From assembly GCF_001270965.1 (NCBI RefSeq), contig NZ_LGIA01000225.1:1-42073 (forward strand): a stretch of DNA of 42,073 nt, written 5' to 3'. Each line of letters opens with the position of its first letter. The stretch's first letter is position 1. The translations under genes and the position numbers were made by a program. This DNA is from Sunxiuqinia dokdonensis (GTDB lineage Bacteria; Bacteroidota; Bacteroidia; Bacteroidales; Prolixibacteraceae). The notes beneath the pieces are model-generated. The model was given only the letters and a program-made list of their open reading frames with translations. It ran no database searches and was not told the origin of the DNA. Below are positions 21,382 to 26,315 of this stretch, in pieces.

Positions 21382-22123
21382 GTCGTTTGTCAAAATAGGA
21401 ATTTTTGCTTCGCTGGTGGCCCTGGTGGCCCTGAGTATGGCCTTTTCTTCGGGGCGGCTGGGCAAGGTCAGTTGCGATGAGCTGGTGGTGCTGATTGACA
21501 AGGATTCGCCTCGGTTTATTGATGAGGATGAAATTGCACGCTTAATCAAAAAGGCGGACAAAAGCTTGTTTGAAAAGAAGCTGAACGAGATCAATACCGA
21601 GCAGTTGGAGCATGAGTTGAAGAAGGAAACAACCATCCGGGAGATTGAGATTTACCGGCGAATTACCGGCGAAAATATGGAATTCAAAGGGAAGTTGATT
21701 GCTGAGGTATCGCAACGCGACCCGATTATGCGGGTTAGAAACGAGACGGAGGATTTCTACCTCGACCGTGCGGGCGTGCGGATTTCAGCCAGTCAGGCAT
21801 TTGTGAGCAAGGTTTTGCTGGCCAGTGGATATGCCAGCGAAAAGTACGCGAGGGAGCAATTGTTGCCCTTGGTTGTTTTCATTCAGGAAAATGAATTTTG
21901 GAATGCTCAGATTGAGCAGTTGCAGGTCAATAAAAATGGAGAGCTGGTTTTGTCAACATTGGTCGGTGACCAGTTGATTGAATTTGGAAAACCATCGGAT
22001 TTTGAACTCAAACTGAGAAACCTGAAAGCGCTTTACGATCAGGCATTTCCAAGAACCGGCTGGGATTTTTATTCGAAAATAAACTTGAAATATACCAATC
22101 AGGTGGTGTGCACAAAAAAATAG
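21374..22123 (+). CDS. ftsQ: FtsQ-like cell division protein
   Basis: A 249-residue bitopic inner-membrane protein. The ATG at 21374 is preferred; a TTG two codons earlier is also in frame. One transmembrane helix lies at residues about 6-24 (IGIFASLVALVALSMAF), then a periplasmic region with the POTRA-like charged stretch and a beta domain (AEVSQRDPIMRVRNETEDFY). Identity to well-studied FtsQ proteins is low. The call rests on topology, size, the VSQRxPIxRV segment and the murC-ftsQ-ftsA order. It links early ring proteins to FtsL/FtsI/FtsW. Confidence 0.85.
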   Translation: MFKSFVKIGIFASLVALVALSMAFSSGRLGKVSCDELVVLIDKDSPRFIDEDEIARLIKKADKSLFEKKLNEINTEQLEHELKKETTIREIEIYRRITGENMEFKGKLIAEVSQRDPIMRVRNETEDFYLDRAGVRISASQAFVSKVLLASGYASEKYAREQLLPLVVFIQENEFWNAQIEQLQVNKNGELVLSTLVGDQLIEFGKPSDFELKLRNLKALYDQAFPRTGWDFYSKINLKYTNQVVCTKK

Positions 22124-22128
22124 TGTAT

Positions 22129-23430
22129 ATGGGCAAGAGCGGGAAAATAATAGCAGCAGTTGATGTCGGGACAACCAAAGTGGTTGTGGTGGCCGGCAGA
22201 AAGAATGAGGATGGCAAGATTGAAGTTTTGGGATACGGCAAAGCGCGTTCCATGGGCGTGAAGCGCGGCGTTGTGCTCAACATTGACGAAGCCTTTTCCG
22301 CGATTCATGAGGCGATTCGGCAGGCCGAAGATGCTTTTCAGGGCGATATCGAAGAGGTGTATGTCAACATTGTCGGGCAGCAGTTAAAGACGCTGACCAA
22401 CCAGGCCGAACGATACATTGGCGACCGTCGCATCGTGTCGGATGAAGATGTTGACGCCTTGTTTCAGCAGGTGAAAAAAGTCGATTTGCCCGAGGGATAT
22501 AAGATTTACCATGTGGCGCCGCAGTTGTTTACCATCGACCACGAATCGGGTATTCCAAATCCGGTGGGCATGACCGGCGAACGCATGCAGGCGGAGTTCA
22601 AGCTCATGGTGGCGCCCGAATTGTACGAGACCAACCTGAAACTCTGCTTTGAACGGGCCGGCATAAACATCCGGCGGTCAATGATTGATCCCTTGGCATC
22701 ATCCGAAATTTTGCTTTCGGAGGATGAGAAGGAAGCGGGTGTGGTTTTGCTTGATATTGGCGGAGGAACAACCAAAATGGCCATTTATCGCGATGGTGTA
22801 CTGTGTTACTCGGCGCTGATTCCTTTTGGTGGCAACGTGATTACGCACGATATCAAGGAGGGATGCAGCATTCTGGCACGCCAGGCCGAATCGCTAAAAG
22901 TACAGTTTGGACAGGCGATGGGTGATTTTGCACCCGAAGACAAGGTGGTCACCATCCCGGGCATTTCAGGTTGGGAGCCCAAAGAAATTTCCTTTAAAAG
23001 CCTGGCTTTTATTATCCAGGCCCGTATGGAAGAAATCATCGAAGCCTTTTTCTTTCATCTTGAAAAATCGGGCTATATGGACCAGGTTGGGGCCGGCATT
23101 GTGCTTACCGGAGGAAGCGGCTTGCTGCCGAACCTCGGGCAGCTCATCAAGTTTCAAACGGGGCTTGATGTGCGTAAAGGCATTCCGCGTCTGAAGCTTG
23201 GGGAGCAATGGAAAGAATTGGAAGATCCGCGAAATGCAACGGTTCTGGGCTTGCTGACCACGGCCTTGAACGATATTGACAATGAAGAACCTGCGAAAGA
23301 ATTTTTCTTTAAGCCGAAGAAAAAGAAAGTGCGCTCAACACAGCCTGGCTTTTTCTCGCAAGTGAAGAAAGAAGTGACCCGCCAGGTAACGCTGTTTTTT
23401 GAAGATGAACAGGATACGGAAATGTATTAA
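22129..23430 (+). CDS. ftsA: Cell division actin homologue FtsA
   Basis: A 433-residue actin-fold ATPase that tethers FtsZ filaments to the membrane. The phosphate-1 loop is IAAVDVGTTKVVVVAG (near the start). The 1C domain segment VYVNIVGQQLKTL follows, then VVLLDIGGGTTKMAIY (phosphate 2) and GIVLTGGSGLLPNL (adenosine loop). The C terminus has a basic linker (FFFKPKKKKVRS) and an amphipathic tail, GFFSQVKKEVTRQVTLFFED, expected to be the membrane-targeting helix. The ATG at 22129 is used, 5 bp after the ftsQ stop; a GTG at 22108 inside ftsQ is in frame but adds nothing conserved. Confidence 0.95.
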   Translation: MGKSGKIIAAVDVGTTKVVVVAGRKNEDGKIEVLGYGKARSMGVKRGVVLNIDEAFSAIHEAIRQAEDAFQGDIEEVYVNIVGQQLKTLTNQAERYIGDRRIVSDEDVDALFQQVKKVDLPEGYKIYHVAPQLFTIDHESGIPNPVGMTGERMQAEFKLMVAPELYETNLKLCFERAGINIRRSMIDPLASSEILLSEDEKEAGVVLLDIGGGTTKMAIYRDGVLCYSALIPFGGNVITHDIKEGCSILARQAESLKVQFGQAMGDFAPEDKVVTIPGISGWEPKEISFKSLAFIIQARMEEIIEAFFFHLEKSGYMDQVGAGIVLTGGSGLLPNLGQLIKFQTGLDVRKGIPRLKLGEQWKELEDPRNATVLGLLTTALNDIDNEEPAKEFFFKPKKKKVRSTQPGFFSQVKKEVTRQVTLFFEDEQDTEMY

Positions 23431-23449: not shown

Positions 23450-24718
23450 ATGACGGAGGACATTTTAAATTTCGGATTTCAGGAATCAAAGTCATCGATT
23501 ATTAAAGTGATCGGGGTTGGTGGTGGCGGCTGTAACGCCGTAAATCACATGTTTGATGAAGGGATTGAAGGCGTTGACTTTTTGATTTGTAATACCGACG
23601 CCCAGGCCTTGCGCAACAGCCCGGTTCCGATTAAAATACAACTGGGTGTCACCCTTACCGAGGGACGTGGCGCAGGCAACCTGCCCATGCAGGGCGAACA
23701 GGCAGCCATTGAAAACCTGGATGATATTCGAAGTGTGCTGGAGGGAACAACCAAAATGTTGTTCATCACGGCCGGGCTGGGCGGTGGAACCGGAACGGGC
23801 GCAGCACCCGTGGTTGCCGAGCTGGCCCGCGAACTCGATATTCTGACGATTGCCGTGGTCACCATTCCTTCGCCGGCCGAGGGCAAGCGCCGGTTTCAGC
23901 AAGCGCTCGAAGGGGTGGAGAAACTGAAAAAAAATGTGGATAGTTTGCTGGTGATCAGCAACGAAAAATTACATAAAATTTATGGCGACCTTCCCGCGTC
24001 GCAAGCCTTTAAAAAGGCCGATAATATTTTGGGTACGGCCGTGAAAGGCGTGGCCGAGATTATCACGCTGCACGGAAACATCAACATTGACTATGCCGAT
24101 GTGCACACGGTGATGGCGGGTAGCGAAGTATTTATCATGGGAACCGGCATTTCCGAAGGAGATGGCCGGGCGATGGATGCCGTCATGAAAGCACTCGAAT
24201 CGCCCTTGCTGGATAGCAACGACATCAAAGGAACCAAAGATATTTTGCTGAATATCACATCAGGTGACGAGGAAATCCGGATGGGTGAAATTGGCGACAT
24301 CATCGAATTTTTACAAGAGAAAGCCGGGCAGGATGCCAATATCATCTGGGGTAACAGTTTGGATAAAAAACTTGGAACCAAAGTGAGCGTTACGCTGATT
24401 GCTACCCGCTTCGATAAAAATCCAAACAGTTTGTTACAGGAGAAGAAGCCCAAAGAAGAGGTGCTTTTTGAAGAACAAGACATCGATATTAACCTGGAAG
24501 ACGAGGATGAAAATCTGATTCCGGGATTTGAAAAAGAAATAGCGAAGCCGCAGAAAGCGGAAGCCATCAAACGAACAGCCAATTCCCGCAAGCAAAAAGC
24601 CAAGAGCAAAAGGGAGTTGGTCTCTGAACAAACCCAGGAAAGTGGAACAACCGACAGCTGGTTTCAACGGCAGTTTAACCGTTTTTTTGAGGATCAGGAC
24701 GAAGAAATTGAGAACTAA
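23450..24718 (+). CDS. ftsZ: FtsZ paralogue 1, with atypical aromatic amphipathic C terminus
   Basis: A 422-residue tubulin-like GTPase. The GTP-binding signature GGGTGTGAAP is intact at about residue 110. The T7 catalytic loop NINIDYADVHTVM keeps both Asp residues, so it should polymerise and hydrolyse GTP. Differences from the second copy are GGGGC instead of GGGGG at the start, TIPSPAEG where FtsZ normally has TxPFxxEG, and the tail. After the globular domain (about residue 320) an acidic then Lys/Arg-rich linker ends in DSWFQRQFNRFFEDQDEEIE. No IPAF/IPAY docking peptide is present. The tail resembles the FtsA amphipathic end. It follows ftsA by 19 bp and precedes the second ftsZ by 20 bp. 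Confidence 0.93.
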   Translation: MTEDILNFGFQESKSSIIKVIGVGGGGCNAVNHMFDEGIEGVDFLICNTDAQALRNSPVPIKIQLGVTLTEGRGAGNLPMQGEQAAIENLDDIRSVLEGTTKMLFITAGLGGGTGTGAAPVVAELARELDILTIAVVTIPSPAEGKRRFQQALEGVEKLKKNVDSLLVISNEKLHKIYGDLPASQAFKKADNILGTAVKGVAEIITLHGNINIDYADVHTVMAGSEVFIMGTGISEGDGRAMDAVMKALESPLLDSNDIKGTKDILLNITSGDEEIRMGEIGDIIEFLQEKAGQDANIIWGNSLDKKLGTKVSVTLIATRFDKNPNSLLQEKKPKEEVLFEEQDIDINLEDEDENLIPGFEKEIAKPQKAEAIKRTANSRKQKAKSKRELVSEQTQESGTTDSWFQRQFNRFFEDQDEEIEN

Positions 24719-24738
24719 CAATTAAGAAAGAAAAGTCT

Positions 24739-26154
24739 ATGTCAAGCGATATTATGAATTTCGATTTAAATAAAACTTCCGAAGAAATTATTAAGGTGAT
24801 TGGTGTGGGAGGTGGTGGCGGAAATGCCGTAAACCACATGTTTCAGCAGGGCATCAAGGATGTTGGTTTCATGCTGTGCAATACCGACGAACAGGCGCTG
24901 AAAAATAGCCCGGTTCCGCTGAAGCTGCAGTTGGGCGAGTCGCTCACCGAAGGACGTGGTGCCGGAAACAAACCTGAAATTGGTAGAGAGGCAGCCATTG
25001 AAAGCATTGACGAGATTAAAAAGACCTTGAAATCGACGACCAAGATGGTTTTTATCACGGCCGGAATGGGCGGTGGAACAGGAACCGGAGCGGCGCCGGT
25101 CATTGCCGAAGCGTGCAAGGAGCTTGACATTTTGACGGTTGGCATTGTCACGCTGCCGTTCCGCAATGAGGGGCGACGGCGCATTAAGCAGGCCATTGAC
25201 GGCATTGCTGAAATGGAGAACCATGTGGATTCCTTGCTGGTGATCAACAACGAACGCATTCGGGAGATGTATGGTGACTTTAAAATTTCAGAAGCCTTTG
25301 CCAAAGCCGACAATGTGCTGACCACCGCTGCCAAGGGAATTGCTGAAATTATCACGGTTCCCGGCTACATCAACGTGGATTTTGCCGATGTGGAAACCGT
25401 CATGCGCAACAGCGGGGTCGCCGTCATGGGCTCGGCCAAAGCTGAGGGCGAAAACCGGGCGCTGCGTGCAGTGGAAGAAGCTTTGAATTCACCGCTTCTG
25501 AACAACAACGACATCAATGGGGCCCGCAATATTTTGCTCAATATTACTTCAGGAAATGAAGAGGTGACCATGGACGAAATTGGAGAAATCACAGATTACG
25601 TGCAGGCCAAGGCCGGTCATGATGCGGACTTGATTTGGGGAAACGGACTGGATGACACTCTGGGACACGAAATCTCGGTGACCATTATCGCTACTGGCTT
25701 TAGTGTGAGTAGCATTCCGGAAATGATGGCTGCCCGCAAGGTGGAAAAAACCTATCATACCCTGATCGACGAGCCACAACCAACACCGCCGGTGCGTCCA
25801 AAACCCGAAGTGCGCGTTCCGTTTACCGGCGGCGAAGCCAAGCGCACAAGCATCAACCAGCAGTCGATTGAGTTTGAAATCAACAAACCCGTTGATGAAT
25901 TTGACGAGTTGTATGGAAAAGCCAATGCTGACCCGAAGAAAGAGTACTCCGTGAAACTGGATTACTCTTCCTCATCGGACGAAGAGGTGGACGAACTGGA
26001 AAACATTCCGGCCTACCGAAGAAAAAAGGTGAACATTCAGAATATGAAAAAGAAGTTTGAAGAGAAACTGTCACGCTTCTCGCTTTCGCCTGATGATGAT
26101 GACAATACCAAACTGCGGGACAACAACTCGTACCTGCACGATAAGGTGGATTGA
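24739..26154 (+). CDS. ftsZ: FtsZ paralogue 2, canonical type
   Basis: A 471-residue tubulin-like GTPase that should form the main Z ring. GGGTGTGAAP (about residue 113), the TLPFRNEGRRR segment and the T7 loop YINVDFADVETVM are standard. After the core, a Pro-rich and acidic linker of roughly 100 residues leads to ENIPAYRRKKVNIQ, which resembles the conserved C-terminal peptide that docks FtsA and other partners. A further extension follows, ending DNNSYLHDKVD. Reading the two copies side by side, more than half of the core positions are identical, so this is an old, diverged tandem duplication. It is the last gene of the cluster; a repeat-rich gap follows. Confidence 0.95.
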   Translation: MSSDIMNFDLNKTSEEIIKVIGVGGGGGNAVNHMFQQGIKDVGFMLCNTDEQALKNSPVPLKLQLGESLTEGRGAGNKPEIGREAAIESIDEIKKTLKSTTKMVFITAGMGGGTGTGAAPVIAEACKELDILTVGIVTLPFRNEGRRRIKQAIDGIAEMENHVDSLLVINNERIREMYGDFKISEAFAKADNVLTTAAKGIAEIITVPGYINVDFADVETVMRNSGVAVMGSAKAEGENRALRAVEEALNSPLLNNNDINGARNILLNITSGNEEVTMDEIGEITDYVQAKAGHDADLIWGNGLDDTLGHEISVTIIATGFSVSSIPEMMAARKVEKTYHTLIDEPQPTPPVRPKPEVRVPFTGGEAKRTSINQQSIEFEINKPVDEFDELYGKANADPKKEYSVKLDYSSSSDEEVDELENIPAYRRKKVNIQNMKKKFEEKLSRFSLSPDDDDNTKLRDNNSYLHDKVD

Positions 26155-26161
26155 CGAGAAG

Positions 26162-26315
26162 GTGAGAAGGTGAGAGAGTGAGAGGGTGAGAGGGTGAGAA
26201 TGTGGGAAAAGAGGATATTCCCTCGGTGAAACTCTGTGCAAAACTCCGTGTTCTCTGTGGTTGAGTTTTGAGCAGGTGAGAAGGTGAGAGAGTGAGAAGG
26301 TGAGAAGGTGAGACC
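26162..26315 (+). repeat. Two octamer (GTGAGARG) microsatellite blocks after ftsZ
   Basis: GTGAG recurs every 8 bp at 26162, 26170, 26178, 26186 and 26194, and again at 26276, 26284, 26292, 26300 and 26308. The roughly 75-bp stretch between them has phrases such as CTCTGTG and CTCCGTG. From 26316 to 26467 the gap continues with AT-rich short repeats (ATTCAATA and CTCGAAACTT variants). No gene is visible in 26155-26467. Confidence 0.9.

Follow-up and report, generated by a model that had tools for sequence, protein, structure and literature searches.

An FtsZ paralogue with a putative FtsA-like membrane-targeting tail in the tandem ftsZ genes of Prolixibacteraceae

In model bacteria, FtsZ reaches the membrane via FtsA, ZipA or SepF. 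At the locus of Sunxiuqinia dokdonensis (Prolixibacteraceae, Bacteroidota) described here, ftsA is followed by two ftsZ genes in tandem: the second, ftsZ2, encodes a canonical FtsZ, and the first, ftsZ1, encodes an FtsZ that lacks the docking peptide and ends in a conserved tail resembling the C-termini of FtsA. Coordinates refer to the window, the whole stretch of 42,073 nucleotides (nt) that was analysed (contig NZ_LGIA01000225.1, positions 1 to 42,073).

The ftsA-ftsZ1-ftsZ2 locus

22108..23430, + strand: ftsA, the upstream neighbour; Pfam FtsA and SHS2_FTSA, TIGR01174 at 321.6 bits (cut-off 175.85)
23347..23427, + strand: FtsA C-terminal tail GFFSQVKKEVTRQVTLFFEDEQDTEMY, from sequence and amphipathicity; a membrane-targeting sequence by homology with other FtsAs
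23450..24718, + strand: ftsZ1, FtsZ without docking peptide and with an FtsA-like tail; open reading frame (ORF) of 422 residues, Pfam and TIGR00065 matches
23483..24424, + strand: FtsZ1 GTPase and C-terminal globular domains (residues 12-325), with GGGTGTG and NIDYADV; nonsynonymous to synonymous ratio (pN/pS) 0.09
24437..24649, + strand: FtsZ1 variable linker (residues 330-400), basic ahead of the tail; pN/pS 0.48 (residues 330-398)
24653..24715, + strand: FtsZ1 tail (residues 402-422), a predicted helix D-x-W-F-x-R-Q-F-x-x-F-F-E-D followed by an acidic end
24739..26154, + strand: ftsZ2, canonical FtsZ; ORF of 471 residues, Pfam and TIGR00065 matches
25990..26028, + strand: FtsZ2 docking peptide DELENIPAYRRKK (IPAY type), from sequence reading
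26071..26151, + strand: FtsZ2 extreme C-terminus SRFSLSPDDDDNTKLRDNNSYLHDKVD, with similar ends in many of the order's single-copy FtsZs; missing from FtsZ1

The original prediction had described two full ftsZ genes in tandem with intact GTP-binding and catalytic-loop residues, the second with an IPAY-type docking peptide and the first without. This description is borne out in full: the ORFs run exactly from 23450 to 24718 and from 24739 to 26154, 20 nt apart and 19 nt behind ftsA, the signature GGGTGTG is legible in both paralogues, the catalytic-loop aspartates stand in NIDYADV (FtsZ1) and NVDFADV (FtsZ2), and the docking peptide is kept by FtsZ2 and missing from FtsZ1. The Pfam domains Tubulin and FtsZ_C are present in both proteins, and both pass the cut-off of the FtsZ equivalog (NCBIfam TIGR00065, 295.2 bits) with 354.5 bits for FtsZ1 and 376 bits for FtsZ2. 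The match in FtsZ1 stops at residue 333, so FtsZ1 is still a member of FtsZ despite having no docking peptide. In the whole genome (4.96 Mb, 99.97% complete), PF00091 matches FtsZ1 and FtsZ2 only.

The C-terminal end of FtsZ1 reads SWFQRQFNRFFEDQDEEIEN; its last residues, DSWFQRQFNRFFEDQDEEIEN, include no docking peptide, and the tail at the window contains no proline. The tryptophan and phenylalanine residues had been placed mostly on one helical face. On a 100-degree wheel, this holds for F405, F409, F412 and F413, each no more than 70 degrees from the hydrophobic face, and fails for W404, which sits at the edge of the face (-113 degrees); R407 and R411 point to the other side.

The product of ftsA is presumably the anchor of FtsZ2, and the membrane role of its C-terminal tail is carried over from known FtsA biology. 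The true start of ftsA likely lies slightly downstream, near 22129. By ORF reading, the genes upstream of ftsA read as a division and cell wall (dcw) cluster, mraZ to ftsQ; the family tests at this locus covered FtsA and the two FtsZs. Past the docking peptide, at the extreme C-terminus, another motif (SRFSLSxDxxxxxLRxNNSYLHDNVD type) is conserved in many FtsZs of the order; FtsZ1 lacks it. Immediately 3' of ftsZ2, at 26156-26313 of the window, the 8-bp unit GAGAAGGT is repeated in two arrays of 6.6 and 5.6 copies.

Conservation and descent of the tailed FtsZ

Among named loci, the closest FtsZ1s are those of Sunxiuqinia elliptica (85% identity) and S. indica (84%), followed by those of Maribellus, Draconibacterium, Mariniphaga, Tangfeifania and Prolixibacter, all genera of Prolixibacteraceae. 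The family was sampled with 108 genomes of at least 90% completeness; these genomes are related, and counts among them are not independent events. At least two FtsZ matches were found in 105 of the 108, a single match in two and none in one (G045, G049, G062), and FtsZ1 was recovered from all 105 genomes with two or more matches. A second FtsZ nucleotide-binding motif follows downstream on the same strand in 100 of these 105 according to a motif scan; in the remaining five the scan missed the FtsZ1 motif, and the pair is visible in ORFs or coordinates (for G079 via its counterpart L102). Both GGGTGTG and the catalytic NxDxxD loop were matched by regular expression in 49 of 50 FtsZ1s, the other one keeping GGGTGTG with the loop unmatched. 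In two family genomes, a separate contig encodes a third FtsZ-like protein that is distantly related (L256:1550-2671 and L257:1479-2468, with 35% and 24% identity to FtsZ1).

Of the FtsZ1 ends, 103 fit the tail motif, that of G013 has E where Q, N, K, R or M is allowed, and that of G021 is masked; the tail is therefore present in 104/104 readable ends. The original prediction had listed a lack of conservation among orthologues as counting against it; the tail is conserved among them. A regular expression found no docking peptide in the 104 readable FtsZ1s, three hits in linkers (PSYQKK twice, PSFSQK) being set aside. All 28 aligned FtsZ1s share W404 and F413 without exception; the inner helix positions vary with their polarity retained. 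In the same alignment, mean entropy is 0.75 in the core, 2.75 in the linker and 1.3 at residues 403-415. Summed over all pairs of six sequences of the genus, pairs that are not independent, pN/pS is as low at residues 402-415 (0.08) as in the core, and reaches 0.26 at the residues beyond. Within the genus, the tail is thus as constrained as the enzyme core. Since it is conserved in the 104 readable genomes and under purifying selection, a chance feature is very unlikely: judged from its sequence, the tail is genuine and of long standing.

In a tree of 61 sequences, the FtsZ1s of the family form one clade (bootstrap/SH-aLRT 100/99) and the FtsZ2s another (99/98), on which a quicker tree of 154 sequences agrees. 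The stem of the FtsZ1 clade measures 0.45 changes per column and that of the FtsZ2 clade 0.13. The cores of the two paralogues at the window are 60% identical over residues 1-324, and at 17 core positions each paralogue has a residue of its own in at least 80% of its sequences, for example position 141, S in FtsZ1 and F in FtsZ2, which we take to lie near the nucleotide pocket. The tailed copies of other families fall into several groups with long branches in the 61-sequence tree; a single clade of the 26 tailed FtsZs in this tree is not rejected (p-AU 0.13). A single event may account for the pair: an in-frame tandem duplication with one end within the 3' part of ftsA and the other within the ftsZ linker would leave ftsA, then an ftsZ bearing the tail of FtsA, then an ftsZ that is intact. 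The median gaps of 18 nt before ftsZ1 (89 loci) and 29 nt after it (90 loci), next to 35 nt between ftsA and ftsZ where one ftsZ is seen (58 loci), are compatible with such a duplication and not diagnostic of it.

Extra tandem copies in other families, like the resemblance to FtsA reported below, add to what the original prediction had noticed. The order was sampled with 295 genomes, most of them with a single FtsZ match. Outside the family, 25 order genomes have at least two matches; 24 of these were examined, G345 being left out. Docking-less tandem copies occur in 13 of the 24, from six families (f16, f22, f31, f66, f80, f99). In these 13 genomes, the upstream one or two members of the tandem, 17 copies in total, all lack the docking peptide; their ends are mostly amphipathic, and many are tails like GWIQTTFDSLFDE, NSWLKRKIGTLFSDEE or GGGMQQLIDFFGGTDVRDDVEM, while G188 has a longer and less distinct one. 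The last tandem copy keeps a docking peptide in 13 of 13, diverged in G039 (EPAHKR). Three ftsZs in a row follow ftsA in three f31 genomes and one f66 genome (L184, L185, L186, L187), two of the three without docking peptide; the tails of these two docking-less copies differ, one being of the WIQTT type and the other of the LQQ, LQK, IFQ or LSLW type. In three genomes of one f22 genus (g44), GKGTGTG replaces GGGTGTG in the docking-type FtsZ (L057:2751-4235, L258:960-2423, L259:1026-2564); the tailed partner is intact in all three, and a fourth f22 genome (L260) is canonical in both FtsZs. This replacement is a pointer to divided labour.

Other duplications are of a different kind. The remaining 11 of the 24 order genomes have split genes, distant copies or, in G279 (L068, f86), two adjacent copies, the upstream one with a docking-like PTYNR end, a separate duplication without the FtsZ1 tail. 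In the phylum sample, no second FtsZ match at E 1e-30 was found in 49 other Bacteroidia genomes; outside the class, 15 of 148 genomes have two or three FtsZ matches, all in group f128 (L164-L183). Nine of these 15 were re-searched and the ends of six extra copies read: all six keep a docking-like P-A-[YF]-x-R end, and they are located on a different contig from the main copy or at a long distance from it.

Resemblance of the tail to FtsA C-termini

Amphipathicity was compared as the mean best hydrophobic moment over the last 26 residues. It is 0.68 for FtsZ1 (n=50) and 0.58 for the 17 FtsZ1-like proteins of other families, which are all the extra upstream copies from the 13 genomes. FtsA tails reach 0.57 (69 from the family), 0.66 (36 from outside) and 0.68 (8 from other tandem families); the 36 outside FtsAs come from genomes without tailed tandem copies, some of which have a second distant or split FtsZ. 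Controls are lower, at 0.39 for IPAY-type FtsZs (n=54, a set mostly, not wholly, from the family; rows fitting neither this rule nor the tail motif of the 50 FtsZ1s were dropped from the comparison), 0.35 for other FtsZs of the order (n=19) and 0.37 for FtsZ1 linkers. The sequence of the FtsZ1 tail has the amphipathic C-terminal pattern of the FtsA type, a predicted helix, and its charge layout is that of the family FtsAs, positive ahead of the helix and negative behind.

Sequence profiles extend this likeness. With 508 unrelated C-termini as background and the threshold at its 99% level, a profile built from the 69 family FtsA tails scores above threshold in a fraction of 0.68 of FtsZ1s (34/50), 0.71 of FtsZ1-like proteins, 0.06 of IPAY-type FtsZs and 0.04 of 1000 shuffled tails; when the profile is built from the 36 outside FtsAs instead, the fractions are 0.40, 0.65, 0.04 and 0.08, respectively. 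When 93 distinct tails were compared with their own reverse, which has equal helical periodicity, the real tail scored higher in 97% (family profile) and 89% (outside profile), and shuffles keeping the hydrophobic pattern matched the real score in 8% and 22% of draws. Because reverses and pattern-keeping shuffles score lower, the likeness to FtsA exceeds amphipathy and includes the order of helix, then acid. It fits common descent with the FtsA tail or convergence alike.

Co-variation of FtsA and FtsZ1 tails within genomes was also examined. A first permutation gave p 0.0000-0.0092 in four settings; after the non-member row L068 had been dropped, 0/5000 permutations reached the observed value with 64 clusters, and p was 0.0044, 0.0058 and 0.026 with 40, 26 and 18 clusters. 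Controls (tail-linker, FtsZ2-tail, linker-linker) showed no significance by permutation. Contrasts of nearest disjoint pairs stood 13/13, 9/8, 6/6 and 6/2 for and against (Wilcoxon p 0.068, 0.35, 0.31 and 0.027), failing in three of the four settings. The signal sits between deep clades and is no more than suggestive; co-evolution of the two tails is not claimed.

Anchoring of the ring by two FtsZs

The reading that we favour, at a probability of roughly 0.7, is that FtsZ1 would be a functional FtsZ paralogue in which an FtsA-like membrane-targeting tail has taken the place of the docking peptide, and that it would share the ring with FtsA-docked FtsZ2. In such a ring, the FtsZ1 tail would fold as a helix on the inner membrane, anchoring FtsZ1 filaments without FtsA; FtsA would hold FtsZ2 via the IPAY peptide; and FtsZ1 would mix with FtsZ2 in filaments or bundles. 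This would create two attachment routes, the ratio of which could set anchoring strength and treadmilling speed. Because its catalytic motifs are intact and its core is 60% identical to that of FtsZ2, FtsZ1 should bind GTP and polymerise; co-polymerisation and divided labour of the two are inferred from the same features. Family searches detected neither SepF nor ZipA in the genome of the window, while in 14 control genomes they detected SepF in seven and ZipA in one (E. coli); FtsA and FtsZ1 therefore remain as the known candidates for anchoring. Direct membrane binding, as originally proposed for FtsZ1, gains indirect support from the loss of the docking peptide, the selection on the tail, its FtsA-like amphipathicity and the likeness to FtsA C-termini that the tails show as a set.

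Several observations weigh against this reading. The moment exceeds that of shuffles of the same composition at the 0.05 level in only 0.52 of FtsZ1 tails, 0.06 of the tails of other families and 0.16 of family FtsA tails (0.39 of outside FtsAs, 0.50 of the FtsAs of other tandem families), and the best moment is at most 0.5 in 13 of the 104 readable FtsZ1s, all of a Draconibacterium/Maribellus type whose helix is longer by one or two residues. The 50 FtsZ1s in the moment test were chosen by the tail motif, yet no readable FtsZ1 of the family lacks such an end. By rank against background, the outside FtsA profile performs poorly (area under the curve 0.86 for FtsZ1, 0.82 for IPAY-type FtsZs and 0.72 for shuffles). 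Profile scores of single tails are small, with medians of 6.5 bits (family) and 3.1 bits (outside), so the significance of the FtsA likeness sits in the set of tails, for which it goes beyond composition, rather than in single ones. The basic stretch before the tail is common to family FtsAs and not to outside FtsAs, which share the acidic end only; an acidic end is unusual for a membrane helix, though the FtsA tails here have one too.

The best-surviving alternative is that what the tail docks to is not lipid but a protein, possibly a protein by which the tail of FtsA is recognised too. The invariance of W404 and F413 exceeds the specificity that a lipid helix requires, the acidic end is common to FtsZ1 and FtsA, and tails from the same genome are more alike by permutation in the three stricter de-clustered sets (p 0.0044-0.026). 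This likeness was, however, not upheld by the nearest-pair contrasts in three of the four settings, the inner helix positions vary while polarity is kept, and the amphipathicity is like that of FtsA tails; docking of a protein is unlikely in our judgement. Somewhat more doubtful is that FtsZ1 binds the membrane and forms a structure of its own, such as a second ring or a polar or envelope-growth scaffold, unmixed with FtsZ2. Cores just 60% identical and the 17 paralogue-specific positions, S141 versus F among them, would suit such a separation, but the tandem arrangement throughout the family, the shared catalytic motifs and the near-universal co-retention suggest a joint role. That the tail is a strongly diverged docking peptide still binding FtsA is highly improbable: both elements start with acidic and hydrophobic residues after a variable linker, but a docking-peptide profile, made from IPAY-type FtsZs whose own score is by construction, scores above background in 0/50 FtsZ1s and 0/17 FtsZ1-like tails, the window tail has no proline, and the tail stands at the extreme end and is followed by acid instead of Arg or Lys. 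A decaying duplicate with a meaningless end, which the longer FtsZ1 stem might suggest, is already contradicted by the selection data (core 0.09, tail 0.08) and by the presence of FtsZ1 in 105 of 108 genomes, and is given next to no weight.

An FtsA-like-tailed FtsZ1 is best read as the natural counterpart, by analogy, of a laboratory chimera, FtsZ-YFP-mts, in which FtsZ fused to yellow fluorescent protein (YFP) carries a C-terminal amphipathic membrane-targeting sequence (mts) (PMC5979038). According to PMC7320174, FtsZ-YFP with the targeting sequence of E. coli FtsA (FtsZ-YFP-mts[FtsA]) binds bilayers and forms treadmilling rings; relative to the MinD version, its coverage of the bilayer is about six times denser and its treadmilling slower, at 23 versus 35 nm/s. 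The authors raise the possibility of tuning treadmilling through two alternative tethers. As described there, these chimeras share with FtsZ1 a C-terminal amphipathic targeting sequence, putative in FtsZ1, and the dispensability of an adaptor; they are artificial and bear YFP, whereas FtsZ1 is natural, fixed in the family and paired with a canonical FtsZ. Compared with the targeting sequence of FtsA itself, the tail is likewise a short amphipathic C-terminal helix (predicted), in the family also with a basic stretch before it and an acidic end, but it sits on a tubulin-like rather than an actin-like protein.

Membrane binding by FtsZ itself is not new in kind, being known, as reported in PMC12583498, in (i) Odinarchaeota, (ii) mycoplasmas and (iii) chloroplasts. 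The Odinarchaeota FtsZ1/FtsZ2 pair likewise divides into a paralogue with its own membrane helix and one with an adaptor, a division seen at the present locus in sequence only; as described there, however, Odinarchaeota FtsZ1 is archaeal, its helix is N-terminal and the adaptor of the pair is SepF. Because its tail is C-terminal, the FtsZ1 described here may work like that of Odinarchaeota and yet is no member of its type. The same paper cites direct membrane contact for chloroplast FtsZ1 and for mycoplasma FtsZs, whose targeting sequences are N-terminal or, in some cases, C-terminal; direct contact is predicted for our FtsZ1 as well, in a different lineage, and the citing passages make no mention of a tandem dcw pair or of likeness to an FtsA tail. 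In Agrobacterium, only one of three FtsZ paralogues is full-length with linker and docking peptide (PMC13170164); like the extra FtsZs described there, FtsZ1 is a bacterial paralogue without docking peptide, but its linker is retained and its tail conserved.

According to a 2023 survey (PMC9871819), the few bacteria that possess two ftsZ genes carry the additional one away from the dcw cluster, a rule to which the tandem ftsZ of Prolixibacteraceae is a clear exception. Among the matches listed in searches of open PubMed Central full text, several of them aimed at related matters, no title or abstract opening reports a tandem ftsZ with an FtsA-like tail in Bacteroidota, and Prolixibacteraceae and ftsZ co-occur in no paper of the open PubMed Central literature searched.

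A wider scenario is tentative, with the odds somewhat against it: one family and members of six more in the order may divide by rings that combine two or three FtsZs, the extra copies of which would be natural chimeras with a membrane-targeting tail of the FtsA kind, perhaps from one in-frame duplication from the 3' end of ftsA to the ftsZ linker, giving an FtsA-independent anchor the dose of which could tune attachment and treadmilling. If the favoured reading is true, evolution made and retained the FtsZ-mts experiment, placing an FtsA-like-tailed FtsZ beside a canonical one, and the system would make two questions testable in cells: the roles of FtsA beyond anchoring, and anchoring strength as a control of treadmilling.

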